In this document: one piece after another, positions 3,573 to 12,614 of the stretch
Numbering within the stretch: the stretch's first letter is position 1
How the letters are laid out: each line of letters opens with the position of its first letter
NCBI GenBank assembly: GCA_018820315.1
Contig: JAHJOQ010000117.1
Span: forward strand, 1-39,625
DNA length: 39,625 bases
Reading direction: 5' to 3'
Source: Candidatus Zixiibacteriota bacterium
Lineage (GTDB): Bacteria > Zixibacteria > MSB-5A5 > JAABVY01 > JAHJOQ01
The notes under the pieces: generated by a model
Seen by the model: the letters and a program-made list of their open reading frames with translations, nothing else
The model's database searches: none
Told to the model about the DNA's origin: nothing
Program-made: the position numbers and the translations under genes

Positions 3573-3624
3573 TGTGTCCCAATTTTAGCTTGCGTTGCGC
3601 GGCTCACTCGGCTATCCTGTTGCT

Positions 3625-5001
3625 ATGCAAAAACTGAGATTACTCATCGTCGATGATGAAGAGAAGCAACGAAGCATGCTATCCGGCTTCCTCACTAAAA
3701 AGGGATATGTCTGCTCTACAGCCGGGTCCGCCGAGGATGCGCTCAAGATGTACGAAAAGGGTGGATTCGAAATCGCGCTTCTCGACATGAAGATGCCGGG
3801 CGAGGACGGGCTCTCGCTCATGAAGAAATTGAAGAGTCTCGACCCGCAGCTTCAACCGATCATGGTGACCGCCTATGGAACCGTGGAGACGGCAGTCGAT
3901 GCCATGCAGTCAGGAGCATTTCACTACATCTCGAAACCTATTGATCTCGATGAACTCCTCGTGTTGATACAGAAAGCGGGGGAGAGGCACCATCTTCTCA
4001 GAGAGAACCTCTATCTCCAGTCTGAACTGGAACGAGTCAGCCCCGACGCTCGAATAATCGGCGAGAGCAGGGCGATTCAGGAAGTGATATCGACCATCAG
4101 CCGGGTAGCGCCGTCTGACGCAACCGTACTGGTAACGGGGGATTCGGGCACCGGCAAGGAACTGGCTGCACGAGCATTGCACAATTTGTCTTCACGAAAA
4201 TCGAACCGGTTTGTTGCAGTGTCATGTGCAGCGCTTCCCGAGACGTTACTCGAATCGGAGCTGTTCGGTCATGTCAAAGGTGCATTCACCGGCGCAACGA
4301 TGTCGAAGATCGGTCGTTTCGAATTGGCTGACGGTGGCACTCTGTTTCTCGATGAGATCGGCGATCTGTCGCCCGACATTCAGGTGAAGCTACTGCGTGT
4401 CCTCGAAACGATGGAGTTCGAGAAACTCGGATCGTCGAAATCGATCAAAGTCGATGTCAGAATTATTGCAGCGACCAATCGAGACCTCGAGCAGAGAATC
4501 GCGCAGGGCGCGTTCCGCGATGACCTTTTCTATCGCCTGAACGTGATAAACATACACATGCCGCTATTGCGAGATCGTCGGGAGGATATTCTTATTCTGG
4601 TTGACCATCTGATCGCGAGAAACGGCAAGAAGCTTAACAAGCGAATCGAAGGACTCACGCCGGAAGCGAAGGACATACTGATGTCTTATTCGTGGCCCGG
4701 AAATGTTCGAGAACTAATCAACGTAATCGAGCGGGCATCCGTACTCTGCAGGGGCAATGTACTCGACACGGTTGATTTCAGCGCTATCTCTTCATCTGAA
4801 CAAAGTCCGATCAGCACGGATCAGTTCTTCACAGACTCCGACGTTCCGCCGCTCAAGGACATCGAGAAGAAGCACATACTTCACGTGCTGGAATACACTG
4901 ACTGGAATTTCGCCAGAACCGCGGATCTTCTGGGCATACACAGGAACACGTTGCGACTTAAGATAAAGGAGTACGGGATACTTAAGAACGACGATGAATA
5001 A
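3625..5001 (+). CDS. NtrC-family sigma-54-dependent response regulator
   Basis: A 458-residue protein with the full NtrC layout. The receiver domain (about 1-120) has acidic pocket D10/D11, phosphoacceptor D54 in [11 protein letters not shown], and the usual T and K (VTAYGT, SKP). The AAA+ domain (about 138-370) has Walker A GDSGTGKE, the sigma-54 contact loop GAFTGA, Walker B LFLDEIGD and the arginine-finger region [10 protein letters not shown]. The C-terminal Fis-type helix-turn-helix ends in [16 protein letters not shown]. It should bind an enhancer and drive open-complex formation by RpoN holoenzyme when phosphorylated. I chose ATG 3625 over an in-frame TTG at 3595 because the receiver starts immediately after it. 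No adjacent kinase gene is present; the nearest histidine kinase is at 24262. A sigma-54 promoter lies at 9461. Confidence 0.95.
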
Positions 5002-5446: not shown

Positions 5447-5509
5447 CCGATCCGAGAAGATTCGTTGATTAGCTATGAGCTTACGAAGAAGGAAGGAGGA
5501 ATGGCCGGC

Positions 5510-5962
5510 ATGAGAACTGTACAGAGAACCGCTTTCCTGATAGTATGCATCTTTGCATGCCTCTGGCAAACAAGTTGCGACGACTACAACATTGTCGAGC
5601 CACGATTCTATGAGGGGGACGATGTAGCGAGTCTTCCCAATTGCGAAGTGACAGAGATCGATGAGAGTCCCTTACTGTTAGGGATCGTACCGCACACGTT
5701 TGCAGCGGGAGCATGCTGGGTCGAGACTCCGGAAATCGGGAAGGTAATAATCGTACGGTTCGATCTTCCGATCCAGGCTGAGGTTAATATCGGCCTGTTC
5801 AACAGCGCCGGCATTCTAGTTACGGCTATAGCTAAAGGCACCTACGAAGGTGGCACTCATTATGACTACATTGAGAATGCAGACACGCTGGAGAGGGGCG
5901 TATATGCGATTTCATTTTCTGCAAATGATTTCAAAGATGCCATCTGGTTTGAGATAGATTGA
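5510..5962 (+). CDS. putative secreted lipoprotein of unknown function
   Basis: A 150-residue protein starting with a hydrophobic signal (MRTVQRTAFLIVCIFACLWQTSC). The cysteine after QTS is a possible lipidation site, but the residue at -3 is Gln rather than Leu/Val/Ile, so the lipobox is imperfect. The mature part is acidic and beta-rich, with a pattern like a small jelly-roll or FlgD-type module (strands around VIIVRFDLP, EVNIGLFNSAGILV and GVYAISFSA). ATG 5510 is chosen because AGGAGG at 5494-5499 is correctly spaced for it; an upstream ATG at 5501 is too close. It is probably co-transcribed with the barrel protein that follows after 13 nt. Confidence 0.6.
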   Translation: MRTVQRTAFLIVCIFACLWQTSCDDYNIVEPRFYEGDDVASLPNCEVTEIDESPLLLGIVPHTFAAGACWVETPEIGKVIIVRFDLPIQAEVNIGLFNSAGILVTAIAKGTYEGGTHYDYIENADTLERGVYAISFSANDFKDAIWFEID

Positions 5963-5975
5963 GGAGGATCAGAAA

Positions 5976-6515
5976 ATGAGAATGTTCTGCATATTAACCA
6001 TAGCATGCTCGCTTCTGATGGCCGCCTCATCCGATGCTGAGGCAGTGCTCAGGAATTCGGTGGTATCTTCGCTCGGTATCCCGCGAGGAGCGATGGATTA
6101 TAGCATAAACGCAGCTTGGAGACTCACTATTGATCTTCCTTCAACTGTGAAACCTGAAGCGAGATTGGGAGGGTCGTTCTCAACGAAGAGCAGCAGTGGA
6201 TCGAGCGCCGGTATGATAGTGACATCGGTATATGTTCTCGGCAGAATATCGTTTCTCGACCAGAATCCGAAGATTTCACCTTACATCGCAGCAGGCCCGG
6301 GGCTTCATTTCATGTATTCGTTTTCGTCTGCAAGCGGAGACGCGGTGGAGCTCTTCGATTCCGGCAACTCGATGACTCTGCTCAAAGCCCATGCGTTTTT
6401 CGGAATCGATTTTGCATTGACGGAGGAGCTTTTCCTCACCGCAGAGGGACGACTGACTTTGCCCAGTGATATCGTAATCGACAGCGGATATCTTGGGCTA
6501 GGGCTAAGACTGTAA
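5976..6515 (+). CDS. small outer-membrane beta-barrel-like protein
   Basis: A 179-residue protein with a cleavable signal peptide (about residues 1-23, ending SSDAEA). It then has alternating hydrophobic/polar strands: GGSFSTKSS, SVYVLGRISF, PYIAAGPGLHFMY, FFGIDFALTEELFLTAEGRL and the C-terminal YLGLGLRL. The internal phrase of the form PYIAAGPGLHF is common in OmpA/OmpX-like eight-stranded barrels; the C-terminus lacks the terminal Phe but ends in Leu. GAGGAGG precedes the ATG by 8 nt. It is likely an envelope partner of the preceding lipoprotein. Specific function is unknown. Confidence 0.65.
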   Translation: MRMFCILTIACSLLMAASSDAEAVLRNSVVSSLGIPRGAMDYSINAAWRLTIDLPSTVKPEARLGGSFSTKSSSGSSAGMIVTSVYVLGRISFLDQNPKISPYIAAGPGLHFMYSFSSASGDAVELFDSGNSMTLLKAHAFFGIDFALTEELFLTAEGRLTLPSDIVIDSGYLGLGLRL

Positions 6516-7558: not shown

Positions 7559-8455
7559 CTAGTTGTCCAAGTGTGCAACAGATGACCCTGATACTTCCTC
7601 GCCTTCGGGTTTGGTGGCCAATGTAACCTTTCGATAATGTTTACAGGAATACTCCAGATACTCATCAATCTCATCAAGATCAATGTTGCCTTTCTTCAGA
7701 TCACTTGGGAGTATGCTGATTATTAGTTTGTCGCATATACTTAGCCTCTTTGATGCTTCAATGTAGCTGTGAATTATCTCTTTCACGATAGTCGATCTGG
7801 TTAGATCATGAATCCGCCCGTGGTTTGTGCCGATAAGAGGAATAGTAACCGCGGCATCACGGCCTGATTCCAAAGCTATGTACTCCCACAACTTTGATAT
7901 GCTTAGCAAGACATCATCAACTGTTGACTCAACTCGATTGTTTGTTTTCTTTTTTGAACTTGCAAGCAAGTAGAACTTCTTGTTTCTTTGTTCGACCTCA
8001 ATCGTCGTGCCAATATCGTGGGCTCTTGTGCAATCAGTCTTCTTGCTTATGTCATTAGCCAGATGAGCCTCTTTGTCAGAGTAATACACCGCTATCATCT
8101 TGCTTAGCAAGCTACGTGCCTTCATAACGTTCCCACCCATACAGACATCAAAGCAGTTGTTGACGGGAATGACAAGTGTACCGGCGTTATCAAAGGCATC
8201 GCCAACCCTAACCTCTACAATATTATCCTTATCTCTAAGTTGATATGTGAAAGAGGTCTTGGGTCTGTTTTTCGCTAGTGCTATTATTACTATGACTACA
8301 GACGCGATCAGGAAGAACGCGACACTCTTAGCGAGAGAATCCGTCTTGCCATCGGTAGAATAACTGGCTATTTCGACAACCAACCAGAATAGACCAACGC
8401 CGGTGACGAAGTCACTCAGAATCGATTTGCGATTACGAAACCACCTGCGCATCAT
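7559..8455 (-). CDS. thsA: ThsA-like Thoeris effector: two TM helices plus macro domain
   Basis: A 298-residue protein. Basic N-terminus, then two membrane helices (about 15-32 and 42-61), then a cytosolic macro domain (about 78-280) with the ADP-ribose-pocket landmarks VGDAF (84-88), VIPVNNCFD (95-103), CMGGN and later IPLIGTNHGRI. This is the architecture of type II Thoeris ThsA (macro domain formerly DUF6430). In characterised systems the macro domain senses an ADP-ribose-type signal made by the TIR partner and the membrane part damages the cell to stop phage. The start overlaps the thsB stop by 4 bp (ATGA), so the two are translationally coupled. The C-terminal 25 residues are polar and probably disordered. 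The region is A/T-richer than its neighbours, consistent with horizontal gain. Confidence 0.85.
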   Translation of the reverse strand: MMRRWFRNRKSILSDFVTGVGLFWLVVEIASYSTDGKTDSLAKSVAFFLIASVVIVIIALAKNRPKTSFTYQLRDKDNIVEVRVGDAFDNAGTLVIPVNNCFDVCMGGNVMKARSLLSKMIAVYYSDKEAHLANDISKKTDCTRAHDIGTTIEVEQRNKKFYLLASSKKKTNNRVESTVDDVLLSISKLWEYIALESGRDAAVTIPLIGTNHGRIHDLTRSTIVKEIIHSYIEASKRLSICDKLIISILPSDLKKGNIDLDEIDEYLEYSCKHYRKVTLATKPEGEEVSGSSVAHLDN

Positions 8456-8955
8456 AGCCCCAGACTCTGATAGACTGAGTCATTATAATAATATGGCCCA
8501 GATTTGTTGCTACTTCTGTATTTCGCATCCCAAGACGGCCAGTTGTTCAACGCATGTTCCACGATCTTCTGATTGAAGCTGACGTGCACAGCAAGTTCGC
8601 CTTTTACAACCGGTGGACACAACGTTGAGTCCATACTTCTACTGCCATTTAGATTCACAACTATAATTGGTATTTGCTTCATGATGGCTTGTTCGATCTC
8701 CCAACGCACGAATTTGTATAGATACTTCGTGTTACTTCCGACAAGCAAGATAAAGACCTTTGTATTATGAAGCCTTTCAGATAACTTCGCTTTTATCGTC
8801 GCTTCCGATGACCAAGGCATTAGGTTGTTCAAATCATGCGCGTCATAGAAGTTGAATGTTGTGTTATCGTTTTTCTTCCATGCTTGCATTAGCCGATAAT
8901 AGTGGATGTCATTATCAGCGTCAAAAGCTACATAGGTTTTATTTGCATAAGTCAT
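8452..8955 (-). CDS. thsB: ThsB-like TIR-domain protein (DUF1863), Thoeris sensor
   Basis: A 167-residue TIR-like protein. It opens with the TYVAFDADNDIHYYRLMQAW strand-helix, has YDAHDLNN as the BB-loop region, then KVFILLVGSNTKYLYKFVRWEIEQAI. E86 in RWEIEQ is in the place of the catalytic NADase glutamate of TIR enzymes. This arrangement is the ThsB/DUF1863 type. In Thoeris the TIR protein recognises phage and converts NAD+ into a signal molecule for ThsA. I place the start at ATG 8955, preceded by GAGG with 5-nt spacing, rather than at a TTG six codons upstream. It is the first gene of the thsB-thsA operon and has its own strong promoter at 9091-9119. Confidence 0.85.
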   Translation of the reverse strand: MTYANKTYVAFDADNDIHYYRLMQAWKKNDNTTFNFYDAHDLNNLMPWSSEATIKAKLSERLHNTKVFILLVGSNTKYLYKFVRWEIEQAIMKQIPIIVVNLNGSRSMDSTLCPPVVKGELAVHVSFNQKIVEHALNNWPSWDAKYRSSNKSGPYYYNDSVYQSLGL

Positions 8956-9018
8956 TATGACCTCGCTTTGCAACCCTTCGCTGTTCTACTCTCGGGTTCC
9001 CGCCTGTCAGCCTCGTAA

Positions 9019-9036
9019 GGTGGAACGTTTTCCACC
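9019..9036. other. perfect 7-bp palindromic hairpin in the thsB leader
   Basis: GGTGGAA-CGTT-TTCCACC lies between the thsB promoter and its start codon. It may be an operator or an RNA hairpin in the roughly 130-nt leader; it has no T-tract. Confidence 0.4.
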
Positions 9037-9090
9037 ATCTTAGTTCCTATATTGCCCCCAACATCAGTCACGTATATTAATATCAAACCA

Positions 9091-9119
9091 ATCATACCAC
9101 GTTCGCTGCGCTGTGTCAA
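9091..9119 (-). promoter_or_regulatory. sigma-70 promoter for thsBA
   Basis: On the minus strand TTGACA (9119-9114) and TATGAT (9096-9091) are separated by exactly 17 bp. It is the best housekeeping promoter in this region and would start a transcript near 9084, leaving a leader of about 130 nt before thsB. Confidence 0.75.
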
Positions 9120-9222
9120 GGCAAATGCCGAATCTGTTGGCGGATTGGGACGTATGCCAACCGCGAATGTCCCAAAGGTCAGAATCCTAGTGATCCTGAC
9201 TATTCTCTTGTTCTGCGCGCCG

Positions 9223-9280
9223 AGGAAGTAGGCAGGATCACTCCGTCACGCCCTGGCGTGACTTCGGATCGCTGCTCTAC
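9223..9280. repeat. hairpin repeat copy R2 (inverted partner of 7467-7523)
   Basis: This 58-bp copy reads AGGAAGTAGGCAGGATCACT at its left end and CGGATCGCTGCTCTAC at its right end, with a GTCACGCC-CT-GGCGTGAC core hairpin. It is the near-identical reverse complement of R1. The remaining intergenic DNA from 8956 to 9518 holds the thsB promoter, hairpins, this repeat, a candidate enhancer and a sigma-54 promoter; no convincing gene is present. Confidence 0.85.
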
Positions 9281-9335
9281 CACTATTACGTGCGCGATTC
9301 GACAATCATCATATTTATGCAGCCCCAGATCAGAC

Positions 9336-9350
9336 GCACAAATATTGTGC
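9336..9350. promoter_or_regulatory. candidate activator-binding palindrome (UAS)
   Basis: GCACAA-ATA-TTGTGC is a perfect 6+6 dyad, centred about 120 bp upstream of the sigma-54 -24 element at 9461. That distance and the GCAC/GTGC ends are reminiscent of NtrC-type enhancer sites. Binding by the regulator encoded at 3625 is only a hypothesis. Confidence 0.4.
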
Positions 9351-9460
9351 TCCAAGCTCCGCCGATCATCTAATTTCGAGCGCCGATACTTCGCCTGAGA
9401 ACATCGTAATACTCTGTACAGCAACATATTGCGGACGCCTCCTGCCTGCAGGGCTGATTA

Positions 9461-9476
9461 TGGCACACTGCTTGCT
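9461..9476 (+). promoter_or_regulatory. sigma-54 (RpoN) -24/-12 promoter
   Basis: TGGCAC-N5-TTGCT matches the RpoN consensus at every key base, with the invariant GG (9462-9463) and GC (9474-9475) exactly 10 bp apart. Transcription would start near 9488, ahead of the ribosome-binding site at 9509 and the ATG at 9519, so it is correctly placed to drive the lipoprotein/DUF4384 genes. Confidence 0.72.
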
Positions 9477-9518
9477 TTATCAGACATCGGAATGAGCAAA
9501 ATAGTAGCGGAGGACAAT

Positions 9519-10436
9519 ATGAAAAACTCTAAAGATATTAAGAAAATTCTCGTAAGGATCGTTTCTGGGCTGATCCTAATGTTTTGGGGAGCGTTTTTTA
9601 TTGGTTGTGAAGATTGTAATGACTGCCGGGTCGTTGCGGTCGATGATACTCCTCCAGACGCTCCCCAGGGCGTATACTCGGTGACCGGAGACAGAGCTGT
9701 TTTTCTGTATTGGCTCAGAAGCCCTGAGAGTGATGTAGATTGCTACTGGGTCTGGCGCAGCGAAGAAGCAATTGAAGGGCCGTACGAACGGCGCCAAAAA
9801 GTCAACCACCCTTCAGATCAGAATATCGGCACGATCTCTTTTGTAGACGCGCCGCTGGTCAATGGAGAGACTTATTTCTACGCTGTGACGGCGGTAGACA
9901 AGCATGGCAACGAGAGCTACGAATTATCTCGCGAAGATGTGTACGATACCCCTCGACCCGAAGGTTCCGGGGTTGTTGTGTATGACATCGGCACACAGCC
10001 GGTATTAGCGGGATTTGATTTTCGCAATGGGCAGCCAAGAGCCTGGGATGATGATCGTGCGGATATATATTTCGAGTATGATGCCGATTGGAATGCTTTT
10101 TTCGTCTGGGCAAAGACATTCGATGTGGGTTGGACCGACATCCAGGATTTTGGATTCACAGAGAGCCTCGACGAACTCGGCTGGGCACCTACTGAAGGTT
10201 GGTCGAAAGTTGGATGGCTCGAAGCGATAGATGGTCATTCATATTATATCTGGACAGCAGAAGAGAATTTCGCCAAGTTTCGCATAGATGCTTCCGATTC
10301 CCGCACCAAGAGCCTGACAATCTCGTGGGCATATCAAACAGAAGTGGGGAATCCTGAATTAGTGCCATCGAGACCGGAGCACGATCCGGCATTTGGCACC
10401 AAAGCGGCTTTTGTAAGTCTCAGTGACTCTAAGTAG
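9519..10436 (+). CDS. fibronectin type III domain lipoprotein-like protein
   Basis: A 305-residue exported protein. A basic N-terminus and hydrophobic segment end in FFIGC, a near-lipobox suggesting lipid anchoring, followed by CEDCNDC with extra cysteines. Residues about 48-145 form a fibronectin type III domain: PPDAPQGVYSV opening, the YWLRSPESDVDCYWVWRS strands, NGETYFYAVTAVDKHGNES closing. The C-terminal half (about 150-305) is Trp/Asp-rich and unassigned. I start at ATG 9519, which has GGAGG at 9509-9513, rather than at an upstream TTG. It probably forms an operon with the DUF4384 gene 18 nt downstream and is the first gene after the sigma-54 promoter. Role: cell-envelope or surface binding, not further known. 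Confidence 0.75.
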   Translation: MKNSKDIKKILVRIVSGLILMFWGAFFIGCEDCNDCRVVAVDDTPPDAPQGVYSVTGDRAVFLYWLRSPESDVDCYWVWRSEEAIEGPYERRQKVNHPSDQNIGTISFVDAPLVNGETYFYAVTAVDKHGNESYELSREDVYDTPRPEGSGVVVYDIGTQPVLAGFDFRNGQPRAWDDDRADIYFEYDADWNAFFVWAKTFDVGWTDIQDFGFTESLDELGWAPTEGWSKVGWLEAIDGHSYYIWTAEENFAKFRIDASDSRTKSLTISWAYQTEVGNPELVPSRPEHDPAFGTKAAFVSLSDSK

Positions 10437-10454: not shown

Positions 10455-12008
10455 ATGAAAAAGATTACTGCGATGATGGTTGTAGCGATGATGCTCCTCG
10501 CGGCTCAGATGTTCGCGCAGGACAAGATCGCTCCCATGCCGAGACCGACCGACGATCTTGAGGTTCGAGTCTGGACTAACAAGGCCGAGGGAAAATCATT
10601 CGGGCAGGGGGAGCACATAATTGTCTATTTCCAGACGAATCGCGACAGCTATGTGACGATTTACGATCTGGATACTCGAGGCGACATAAACCTGCTCTTC
10701 CCGTTAGAGTACGATGACCCATCCTATGTCGAGGGTGGAAGAGTCTACTCTATACCCGATTACTATGATGATTATGAGCTAGTCGTCGAAGGGCCTCTCG
10801 GGCATGAGTATATACAGGCTGTGGCTTCGCTTGATCCATTCGATGTCCCGGCGTGGCCGTCGAAGTTCTTCAAGTACGATGAGTATTATCCGCTTCACGC
10901 GGACAGGGATGCTGTGGACTTTCTGAATTATGTCAATCACCGCTATTTCCCCTTCGACAACTGCGGGGCTCGGTGTGCGGTAGATTACACGCATTTCGAA
11001 GTGCGCCGCGACTGGAGTTATGACTGGGATGATTACTATGACCAGCGCGACTACTATCGCAACGATCGCTACTATTACGATCCCTGGGGATGGTGCGGCA
11101 CTATCTACATCGGCTATCCGTATGGTGGCGCAGTCTATATCAACGGGATATTCTACGGTTACGCGCCACTGTTCGTCCCTCGAATTGTCGTGGGCTGGCA
11201 TCACTTCCAGATATGGTATGATGGATTCTATTGGTACGACCAGCGCTTCCGTGTCTACGCTGGCGGGTGGTATGACTACGACTGTGATGATGTCAGGTAT
11301 AAAGGTGATCACAATCACTACGGATTCAAACCGAAGCGGAGAGGTTCGCCGGAAGAGGTAGCTGGCCGGTTTGAGCCTGACAGACGCAAGACCGTGTTCA
11401 CTAAGAAAGAAGGATACATCACGAAAGACAAGTATCTTGCTGAGCGGACAAAGACCCCTGTTCGCAGCACCGACAACAAGTATTTCAAGGGCGTCAACAA
11501 GGACATGCGCGGTACCAAAACTTACGGTTCGGATGGCAAGAAGGTGAACGTGACAAATGACGCAAAGAACAGCAAGTCATATAAGAAGAATGCTGCCTGG
11601 AATGACTACAACTCGCCCAAGGTTTCGACCGAGAAGAAGAAGTCTGACAATTCCGGAAAGGAAATCAAGTCAACCGGAGTAAACAGCAAGAAGACGAAAA
11701 AGAGCACATCTTCGTCGGACTATTCCAAGGGTAAGTCATCCGGGTCGTCCGATAAACAGCCGATCTTCAAGCCGAAGTCCTCGAATGACAAGAAGTCCTC
11801 CGGATCATCGAAGGGCAATAAGGGATCGGATAAGACGAACATTTCGACCGGGAGCTCGAAGAAGCCATCGGGAAGCTCAACATCTCCGAAATCTTCGGGT
11901 GGCTCTTCCGGATATTCGAAGCCGAGCGGCGGATCGGCACCGTCGGGTGGATCGAAGAGTTCCGGTGGAAGCCGGTCCGGTGGCGGCAAGAAGGACGGTA
12001 GACGATAA
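10455..12008 (+). CDS. exported DUF4384 protein with Tyr/Asp-rich middle and Ser/Lys/Gly-rich tail
   Basis: A 517-residue secreted protein: signal peptide about 1-22 (ending MFAQ), then a DUF4384-type domain about 30-130 (EVRVWTN, GEHIIVYFQTNRDSYVTIYD, INLLFPLE). The middle (about 150-290) is extremely rich in Tyr, Asp and Trp with repeated DYYD/RYYYDP runs. The last 200 residues are low-complexity Ser/Lys/Gly (SSGSSKG, KSSGGS, SGGSKSSGG). DUF4384 domains occur in envelope and stress-linked proteins; the rest looks disordered and cell-wall or matrix-like. An in-frame GTG lies three codons upstream, but ATG 10455 fits the AGG ribosome-binding site and the signal peptide. A strong hairpin follows the stop. 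Confidence 0.75.
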   Translation: MKKITAMMVVAMMLLAAQMFAQDKIAPMPRPTDDLEVRVWTNKAEGKSFGQGEHIIVYFQTNRDSYVTIYDLDTRGDINLLFPLEYDDPSYVEGGRVYSIPDYYDDYELVVEGPLGHEYIQAVASLDPFDVPAWPSKFFKYDEYYPLHADRDAVDFLNYVNHRYFPFDNCGARCAVDYTHFEVRRDWSYDWDDYYDQRDYYRNDRYYYDPWGWCGTIYIGYPYGGAVYINGIFYGYAPLFVPRIVVGWHHFQIWYDGFYWYDQRFRVYAGGWYDYDCDDVRYKGDHNHYGFKPKRRGSPEEVAGRFEPDRRKTVFTKKEGYITKDKYLAERTKTPVRSTDNKYFKGVNKDMRGTKTYGSDGKKVNVTNDAKNSKSYKKNAAWNDYNSPKVSTEKKKSDNSGKEIKSTGVNSKKTKKSTSSSDYSKGKSSGSSDKQPIFKPKSSNDKKSSGSSKGNKGSDKTNISTGSSKKPSGSSTSPKSSGGSSGYSKPSGGSAPSGGSKSSGGSRSGGGKKDGRR

Positions 12009-12014
12009 CACAGG

Positions 12015-12044
12015 TTGCGCCCTTCGGAATGCCAAAGGGCGCAA
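12015..12044 (+). terminator. hairpin terminator after the DUF4384 gene
   Basis: TTGCGCCCTT / AAGGGCGCAA form a perfect 10-bp stem with a 10-nt loop, followed by ACCGATTTTA. The T-run is short and displaced by about 6 nt, so termination may be partial. Confidence 0.6.
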
Positions 12045-12560: not shown

Positions 12561-12588
12561 TTGACAGGTTCTTTTTTTGAGTTAATCT
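12561..12588 (+). promoter_or_regulatory. sigma-70 promoter of the hrcA-dnaK operon
   Basis: TTGACA (12561-12566) is followed after 16 bp by TAATCT (12583-12588), a fair -10 that abuts the CIRCE element. Repressor at CIRCE would cover the start site. Confidence 0.6.
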
Positions 12589-12614
12589 TAGCACTCTGTC
12601 GGCACAAGTGCTAA
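12588..12614 (+). promoter_or_regulatory. CIRCE operator (HrcA-binding inverted repeat)
   Basis: TTAGCACTC-N9-AAGTGCTAA matches the CIRCE consensus (TTAGCACTC-N9-GAGTGCTAA) with a single mismatch. It lies 31 nt before hrcA, so the whole hrcA-grpE-dnaK-dnaJ operon should be repressed by HrcA at normal temperature and released on heat shock. Confidence 0.95.

Follow-up and report, generated by a model that had tools for sequence, protein, structure and literature searches.

The window, by which we mean the whole 39,625-base stretch of DNA analysed, very probably carries the control region of a two-gene envelope operon governed by a two-component sigma-54 circuit with a small envelope regulon. 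In the circuit that we propose, sigma-54 RNA polymerase would wait at the promoter at 9461-9476, and an orphan membrane histidine kinase (gene on contig C46) would sense a signal and phosphorylate the response regulator, the product of 3595-5001. This protein would bind the palindrome at 9336-9350, perhaps also a weak second copy 30 bp upstream of it, and loop to the polymerase, where its GAFTGA AAA+ domain would open the promoter for transcription. The regulon would be very small, with the lipoprotein/DUF4384 operon and, on another contig (C50), at least one operon for a predicted outer-membrane protein. Any proposal for the signal, be it an envelope cue, haem or another ligand, is speculative. 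The features concerned are as follows.

3595..5001, plus strand: response-regulator sigma-54 activator (receiver, AAA+ with GAFTGA, Fis-type HTH with HRNTL)
9306..9320, no strand: degenerate second palindrome copy, 8/12 positions, 30 bp further upstream
9336..9350, no strand: predicted UAS/enhancer palindrome GCACAA-N3-TTGTGC, exact; predicted site of the 3595 activator
9461..9476, plus strand: sigma-54 -24/-12 promoter TGGCAC-N5-TTGCT, exact consensus, kept upstream of orthologues
9519..10436, plus strand: predicted lipoprotein (N-terminal helix, Cys30, FN3, C-terminal HmuY-fold domain)
10458..12008, plus strand: DUF4384 protein, second operon gene (listed as an ORF from GTG 10446)
12015..12044, no strand: 13-pair stem behind the DUF4384 gene, where the operon may end
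12588..12614, no strand: CIRCE-like element TTAGCACTC-N9-AAGTGCTAA before hrcA

The preliminary description had reported an exact RpoN promoter with GG-N10-GC spacing, and this was borne out at 9461-9476. The letters TGGCAC-ACTGC-TTGCT match TGGCAC-N5-TTGCW exactly, with GG at 9462-9463 and, after N10, GC at 9474-9475, and TGGCAC-N5-TTGCT has a single exact match in the window. The last base of the promoter is separated by 42 nt from the ATG at 9519, which has GGAGG just 5′ of it. A transcription start had been placed at 9488; by the usual -24/-12 rule, the predicted start would be at about 9487. In 8900-9519, no sigma-70-type promoter was listed for the plus strand. The source genome (G000; 3.78 Mb, 173 contigs, a Zixibacteria-type MAG) contains one match to rpoN (Sigma54_DBD, E 2.5e-54), the gene whose absence had been named as fatal to sigma-54 control. 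The genome scan for further -24/-12 sites that had been proposed returned 21 matches to TGGCAYN5TTGCW, compared to 5 for a reversed control pattern. Sixteen of the 21 were situated inside naive ORFs of at least 60 aa, one of them being the 9461 promoter itself, which falls in an over-long ORF from TTG 9429. Because of these ORF-internal sites, the consensus by itself is insufficient, and the scan of the own genome was rejected as a regulon list for being too noisy. We accepted the promoter because it is conserved ahead of orthologues.

The palindrome at 9336-9350 (GCACAAATATTGTGC) reads GCACAA-ATA-TTGTGC, has a single exact match in the window and lies 125 nt from the promoter, start to start. 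Its placement at enhancer distance had been noticed before, and both the order and the distance relative to the promoter proved to be conserved across orthologues. Palindromes with up to three mismatches occurred at chance level in the window (17 found, 14.5 expected); within the window by itself, the two motifs constitute modest evidence. The palindrome scan suggested earlier found the consensus GCACWANNNWTGTGC at one place in the 3.78-Mb genome and its reversed control at none. Near-palindromes with at most two mismatches were frequent there (113 per strand versus 73 for the control), and on this account weaker targets may exist in the same genome. Across the 39-genome set, GCACWANNNWTGTGC matched in 24 genomes, with 47 strand hits versus 14 for the reversed control; by our own reading of the list, the distinct places number 35, with 14 at the lipoprotein promoter, 4 at the second operon described below and 17 elsewhere.

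Conservation was analyzed upstream of orthologues of the 9519 protein, which is present in 38 of the 39 genomes of the relatives set, the own genome included; among these 38 class genomes, the context set omits G007, G020 and G026. The window, 34 class loci and the 80 best named loci out of at least 279 confirmed relatives of the 9519 protein made up a pool of 115 loci; four upstream duplicates and two loci with too little upstream DNA (L085 and L155) were left out, giving a final n of 109. The elements were scored in the 250 nt before the start, and upstream regions of other ORFs in the same loci were scored alike as controls. Among these relatives, which are not independent and include many MAGs, some of them incomplete, a -24/-12 element of at least 9/11 was present in 96 of 109 upstream regions, compared to 4.5% of 1,106 controls and 6.2% of 2,180 first-order Markov shuffles. 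The palindrome was found at 10/12 or better in 70 of 109 (0.7% of the same controls, 1.0% of the shuffles) and at 11/12 or better in 58 of 109, a level that none of the 1,106 controls reached. Grouped by record title, a label that may be in error, the loci were distributed as follows.

Window and class set (n = 34): sigma-54 site 32, palindrome 27
Other named Zixibacteria (n = 17): sigma-54 site 15, palindrome 14
WOR-3/Stahlbacteria/TA06/Hydrothermota (n = 21): sigma-54 site 20, palindrome 21
Cloacimonadota (n = 3): sigma-54 site 3, palindrome 3
Ignavibacteria, Chlorobi, Bacteroidota, Calditrichota or KSB1 labels (n = 17): sigma-54 site 15, palindrome 1
Poribacteria (n = 5): sigma-54 site 1, palindrome 0
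Other labels (n = 12): sigma-54 site 10, palindrome 4

These counts confirm that the predicted promoter and palindrome are conserved before the same gene. Sigma-54 control of the FN3 and DUF4384 genes, the central suggestion of the preliminary description, is supported by the presence of rpoN and by the conservation of both elements across much of the FCB group. The palindrome was absent at the 10/12 level in 7 of the 34 class-set loci (window included), among them G017, even though the activator is adjacent there. Several lineages keep the sigma-54 site without the palindrome, and neither k-mer nor gapped-palindrome counts found a replacement enhancer shared by the 31 sigma-54-site loci that lack it. 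It is an evenly balanced proposition that this represents an ancient FCB-group kinase/sigma-54 circuit, which in each genome serves just one or two strong promoters and controls the FN3-HmuY lipoprotein. The sigma-54 promoter of the lipoprotein gene would then have persisted in Zixibacteria, WOR-3, Cloacimonadota, Ignavibacteria, Calditrichota and Bacteroidota, including lineages where enhancer and helix were lost or replaced. L086-L088, close named relatives of the 9519 protein, bear the label Candidatus Zixiibacteriota, an FCB-group phylum. One locus from a record titled Ignavibacterium (L089) has an adjacent activator and a palindrome of 10/12; its hrcA-grpE-dnaK order is as in Zixibacteria, and the record may be mislabelled.

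The arrangement of the two elements was examined in the 71 loci in which both were present, with the sigma-54 site there at 8/11 or better. The spacing from the palindrome to the -24 element was 65-134 nt in 68 of them. A second palindrome copy of at least 8/12 was seen in 46 of the 71, a raw count without a control set; its commonest offsets were 31 bp upstream (14 loci) and 20 bp downstream (9 loci), about three and two helical turns. For the copy at 9306..9320, just this clustering of offsets in other loci hints weakly at a function. Helical phasing of the palindrome-promoter spacing was not clear (vector length of 0.12-0.30 for periods of 10-11 and 0.27 for a period of 12). Sequence logos were not taken as evidence because the sites had been selected by score and GG was required.

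The gene at 3595-5001, for which ATG 3625 is the more likely start, encodes a protein with the NtrC-type domain set, since Pfam Response_reg, Sigma54_activat and HTH_8 all matched above cut-off. It contains the GAFTGA loop and, as phospho-acceptor position, D53, which was invariant in 18 aligned sequences. Another reading is that the promoter is real and the palindrome serves a different regulator, a repressor or an activator, with the 3595 activator being a mere neighbour. The distance of 4.3 kb from the end of the activator gene to the palindrome speaks for this reading, as do the about 30 sigma-54 activators of the genome (33 Pfam matches, three of them weak) and the FCB lineages that have a sigma-54 site without this palindrome. 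We nevertheless consider it unlikely, because 25 loci (11 of the 34 class loci and 14 of the 80 named ones, of which several are short contigs) have an activator orthologue next to the promoter, with about 155-325 bp from its end to the start of the lipoprotein match, and 24 of the 25 also show the palindrome. In 7 further class loci, the orthologue was located 1.5-10.7 kb upstream, and in G001 (L086) a short activator match at the end of the contig is separated from the lipoprotein gene by a glyoxalase match. In the window, the interval contains genes for a glyoxalase and a methyltransferase, for two small exported-looking proteins and for a Thoeris pair.

The recognition helix points in the same direction. 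HRNTL was found in 1 of 24 own-genome activators, that of the window alone, and four more that were examined lacked it, which makes 1 of 28; this census covered 28 of 30 fetched activator loci, with L192 and L197 left out. We then turned to non-Zixibacteria named-locus genomes, which were sorted by palindrome before the helix search. G-x-HRNTL was encoded in 19 of 24 genomes with the palindrome and in 2 of 26 without it, an association (Fisher P 3e-7, uncorrected for kinship) that follows phylum boundaries in part. In all 21 HRNTL genomes, at least one match lies in a sigma-54 activator. The activators of the two exceptions without the palindrome showed about 41-42% identity, whereas those in palindrome genomes showed 46-57%, apart from a distant one of 38% in G060; HRNTL was not found in 5 of the 24 palindrome genomes. 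This co-occurrence is the strongest support for the predicted regulator-operator pairing. Together with the synteny, it favors the earlier proposal that the 3595/3625 regulator is the binder of the palindrome. With about 30 sigma-54 activators and a single rpoN match, G000 is an activator-rich genome.

The first target gene, described earlier as encoding an FN3 lipoprotein, retains that assignment, with the refinement that an HmuY-fold domain is also present. The 9519 protein begins with an N-terminal helix, and Cys30 is invariant in 30 aligned members. The window protein itself matched no Pfam family; the FN3 assignment comes from Pfam matches in 6 of 30 relatives and from a profile search that hit an Fn3-like structure at E 4.9e-11, and the fold agrees with it. 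The model of the C-terminal domain had a mean pLDDT of 86.5. Fold comparison assigned it to the HmuY fold, with nine entries at Z 7.7-11.2 and the next row at 4.9. The nine are HmuY (Z 10.3 and 9.8), HmuY-like proteins and one DUF4466 protein; we take some of them to be HmuY homologues. Foldseek alone gave no match for this domain at E 0.001 or better, and a profile search against sequences of solved structures gave nothing significant (best E 0.53). Pfam HmuY (PF14064) matched 10 of 30 members weakly (best E 0.003) and the window protein not at all; in L089, it reached 17.7 bits, below the gathering cut-off of 27.

Downstream of the DUF4384 gene, the window contains hrcA-grpE-dnaK-dnaJ, and it is conceivable that the promoter also drives these genes, forming a sigma-54 heat-shock/envelope-stress operon. 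HrcA or DnaK matches were indeed found downstream in the fetched flank of 11 of 34 class and 15 of 80 named loci. We regard such read-through as quite improbable, as the DUF4384 gene is followed by the stem at 12015..12044 and hrcA is preceded by the element at 12588..12614, which resembles the CIRCE consensus. Furthermore, no chaperone match was found in the WOR-3-type and Cloacimonadota flanks, some of which are short, although the promoter is conserved there. The stem is terminator-like on the minus strand only, its plus-strand T-run being short. On the basis of stem and CIRCE-like element, the chaperone operon is probably separate, under its own control and outside the lipoprotein transcript. 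That both motifs are chance matches to short consensuses is hardly credible: noisy as consensus scans are (16 of 21 genome sites in naive ORFs), the upstream counts of 96 and 70 exceed the control rates by far, and when seven sequences from the family and order of the window were aligned, 18 of the 27 invariant columns fell in the two elements (10 in the palindrome and 8 in the -24/-12 element).

The gap between activator and target operon also harbors a Thoeris defence pair (7559-8973, minus strand). ThsA, a Macro-domain protein, shows hydrophobic stretches at its N-terminus when read by eye, and ThsB is TIR-like; neither had a match among the loci as fetched, 34 of the class set and 80 named, some of which are short. 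Control of this pair by the same circuit was rejected, since the minus strand of 8973-9461 contained no TGGCACN5TTGCW within two mismatches. The two small exported-looking proteins between the glyoxalase and methyltransferase genes (5465-6515) had no Pfam or NCBIfam match.

For the sensor in the proposed two-component circuit, we looked next to activator genes. An ORF of 669-706 aa directly precedes the activator in 5 of 18 loci (L061, L071, L077, L078 and L079), and histidine-kinase motifs were recognized by eye in two of the five. In G022, a kinase adjoins the activator, and this kinase has one full-length relative in the own genome, on contig C46 (446 bits versus 157 for the next best). The C46 kinase (L207:1474-3546) is 690 aa long and contains PAS, HisKA and HATPase domains; Cache was matched weakly, below cut-off. 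The kinase gene is an orphan, located on another contig and unlinked to the activator. The C46 orphan membrane kinase is the probable partner of the 3595 activator. A small lipoprotein-like ORF follows the kinase gene.

Among known systems, NtrC enhancers have the consensus GCAC-N7-GTGC and occur as paired sites. The 3595 protein has the same domain order as NtrC, and the palindrome fits this consensus; however, the protein scored 448.1 bits, below the TIGR01818 cut-off of 558.6, the palindrome has A/T in its inner half-sites, and the locus is without a nitrogen gene. The proposed circuit works like PrsK/PrsR, yet it is outside the PrsR, NtrC, AtoC and ZraR families by the cut-offs tested. According to Haft et al. 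2006 (PMC1569441), PEP-CTERM genes are controlled by a transmembrane kinase and an NtrC-like response regulator, with an upstream activator motif and a -24/-12 motif before exported proteins, as deduced by comparison, and the associated motif was found in Proteobacteria. The likeness covers kinase and NtrC-like regulator, activator motif, -24/-12 site and the same comparative evidence. In contrast to PrsR, the 3595 protein scored 393.5 bits against the TIGR02915 cut-off of 502.6, the best-conserved target is one lipoprotein operon instead of the PEP-CTERM family, and the host belongs to the FCB group, not to the Proteobacteria of that paper. Francke et al. 2011 (PMC3162934) place AtoC, ZraR and Rrp2-type response-regulator activators in one large group and list Rrp2 in connection with lipoprotein synthesis in Borrelia. 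The 3595 protein resembles these as a response-regulator sigma-54 activator, but did not reach the NCBIfam cut-offs for AtoC (465.9 of 714 bits) and ZraR (417.7 of 760 bits). The idea that sigma-54 often governs the cell exterior had been invoked from the start, and the circuit fits this theme as it appears in the same paper. Like HmuY lipoproteins of Bacteroidota, the 9519 protein is a predicted lipoprotein with a C-terminal HmuY fold; unlike HmuY, it has this domain fused to FN3, and Pfam HmuY stays below cut-off. Literature searches found nothing joining DUF4384 or Zixibacteria to sigma-54, and titles and abstract openings on HmuY/FN3 lipoproteins, sigma-54 and Ignavibacteria contained nothing on this operon.

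For several phyla known chiefly through metagenomes, the proposed circuit predicts a regulator, an operator, a probable sensor and targets. It would also be a case of a sigma-54 promoter kept on one gene over very long evolution while the enhancer changed or went missing, and it offers a handle on an FN3-HmuY lipoprotein that is widespread in the FCB group.

A second operon emerged from a scan for sigma-54 sites downstream of near-palindromes, which covered 14 loci (L217-L230); C50 was the one locus with such a site.

L218 / G000 C50 1134-1940: predicted exported protein and lipoprotein-like ORF, with palindrome and sigma-54 site

Here, GCCCAATAATTGTGC and TGGCAGACGAATTGCT are 142 nt apart. 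The exported protein had no Pfam match, and its outer-membrane location is predicted by eye. The gene is present in 36 of 39 class genomes. Over 30 loci, one of which had just 116 nt of upstream DNA, a sigma-54 site of at least 9/11 was found in 15 (9.3% of shuffles) and absent from 15, a palindrome of at least 10/12 was found in 14 (1.5% of shuffles) and absent from 16, and both elements were present in 13. Nine loci with other palindrome places in relatives were looked at. The palindromes of G011 C48 and G038 C14 were set aside as targets because they lie at or inside ORFs. In G032 C156, a sigma-54 site (10/11) is located 110 nt downstream of the palindrome. At L205 / G006 C17, a sigma-54 site (10/11) lies 81 nt downstream of the palindrome GCACTATTTTTGTGC and precedes a 247-aa ORF, which in this one genome may be a third target.
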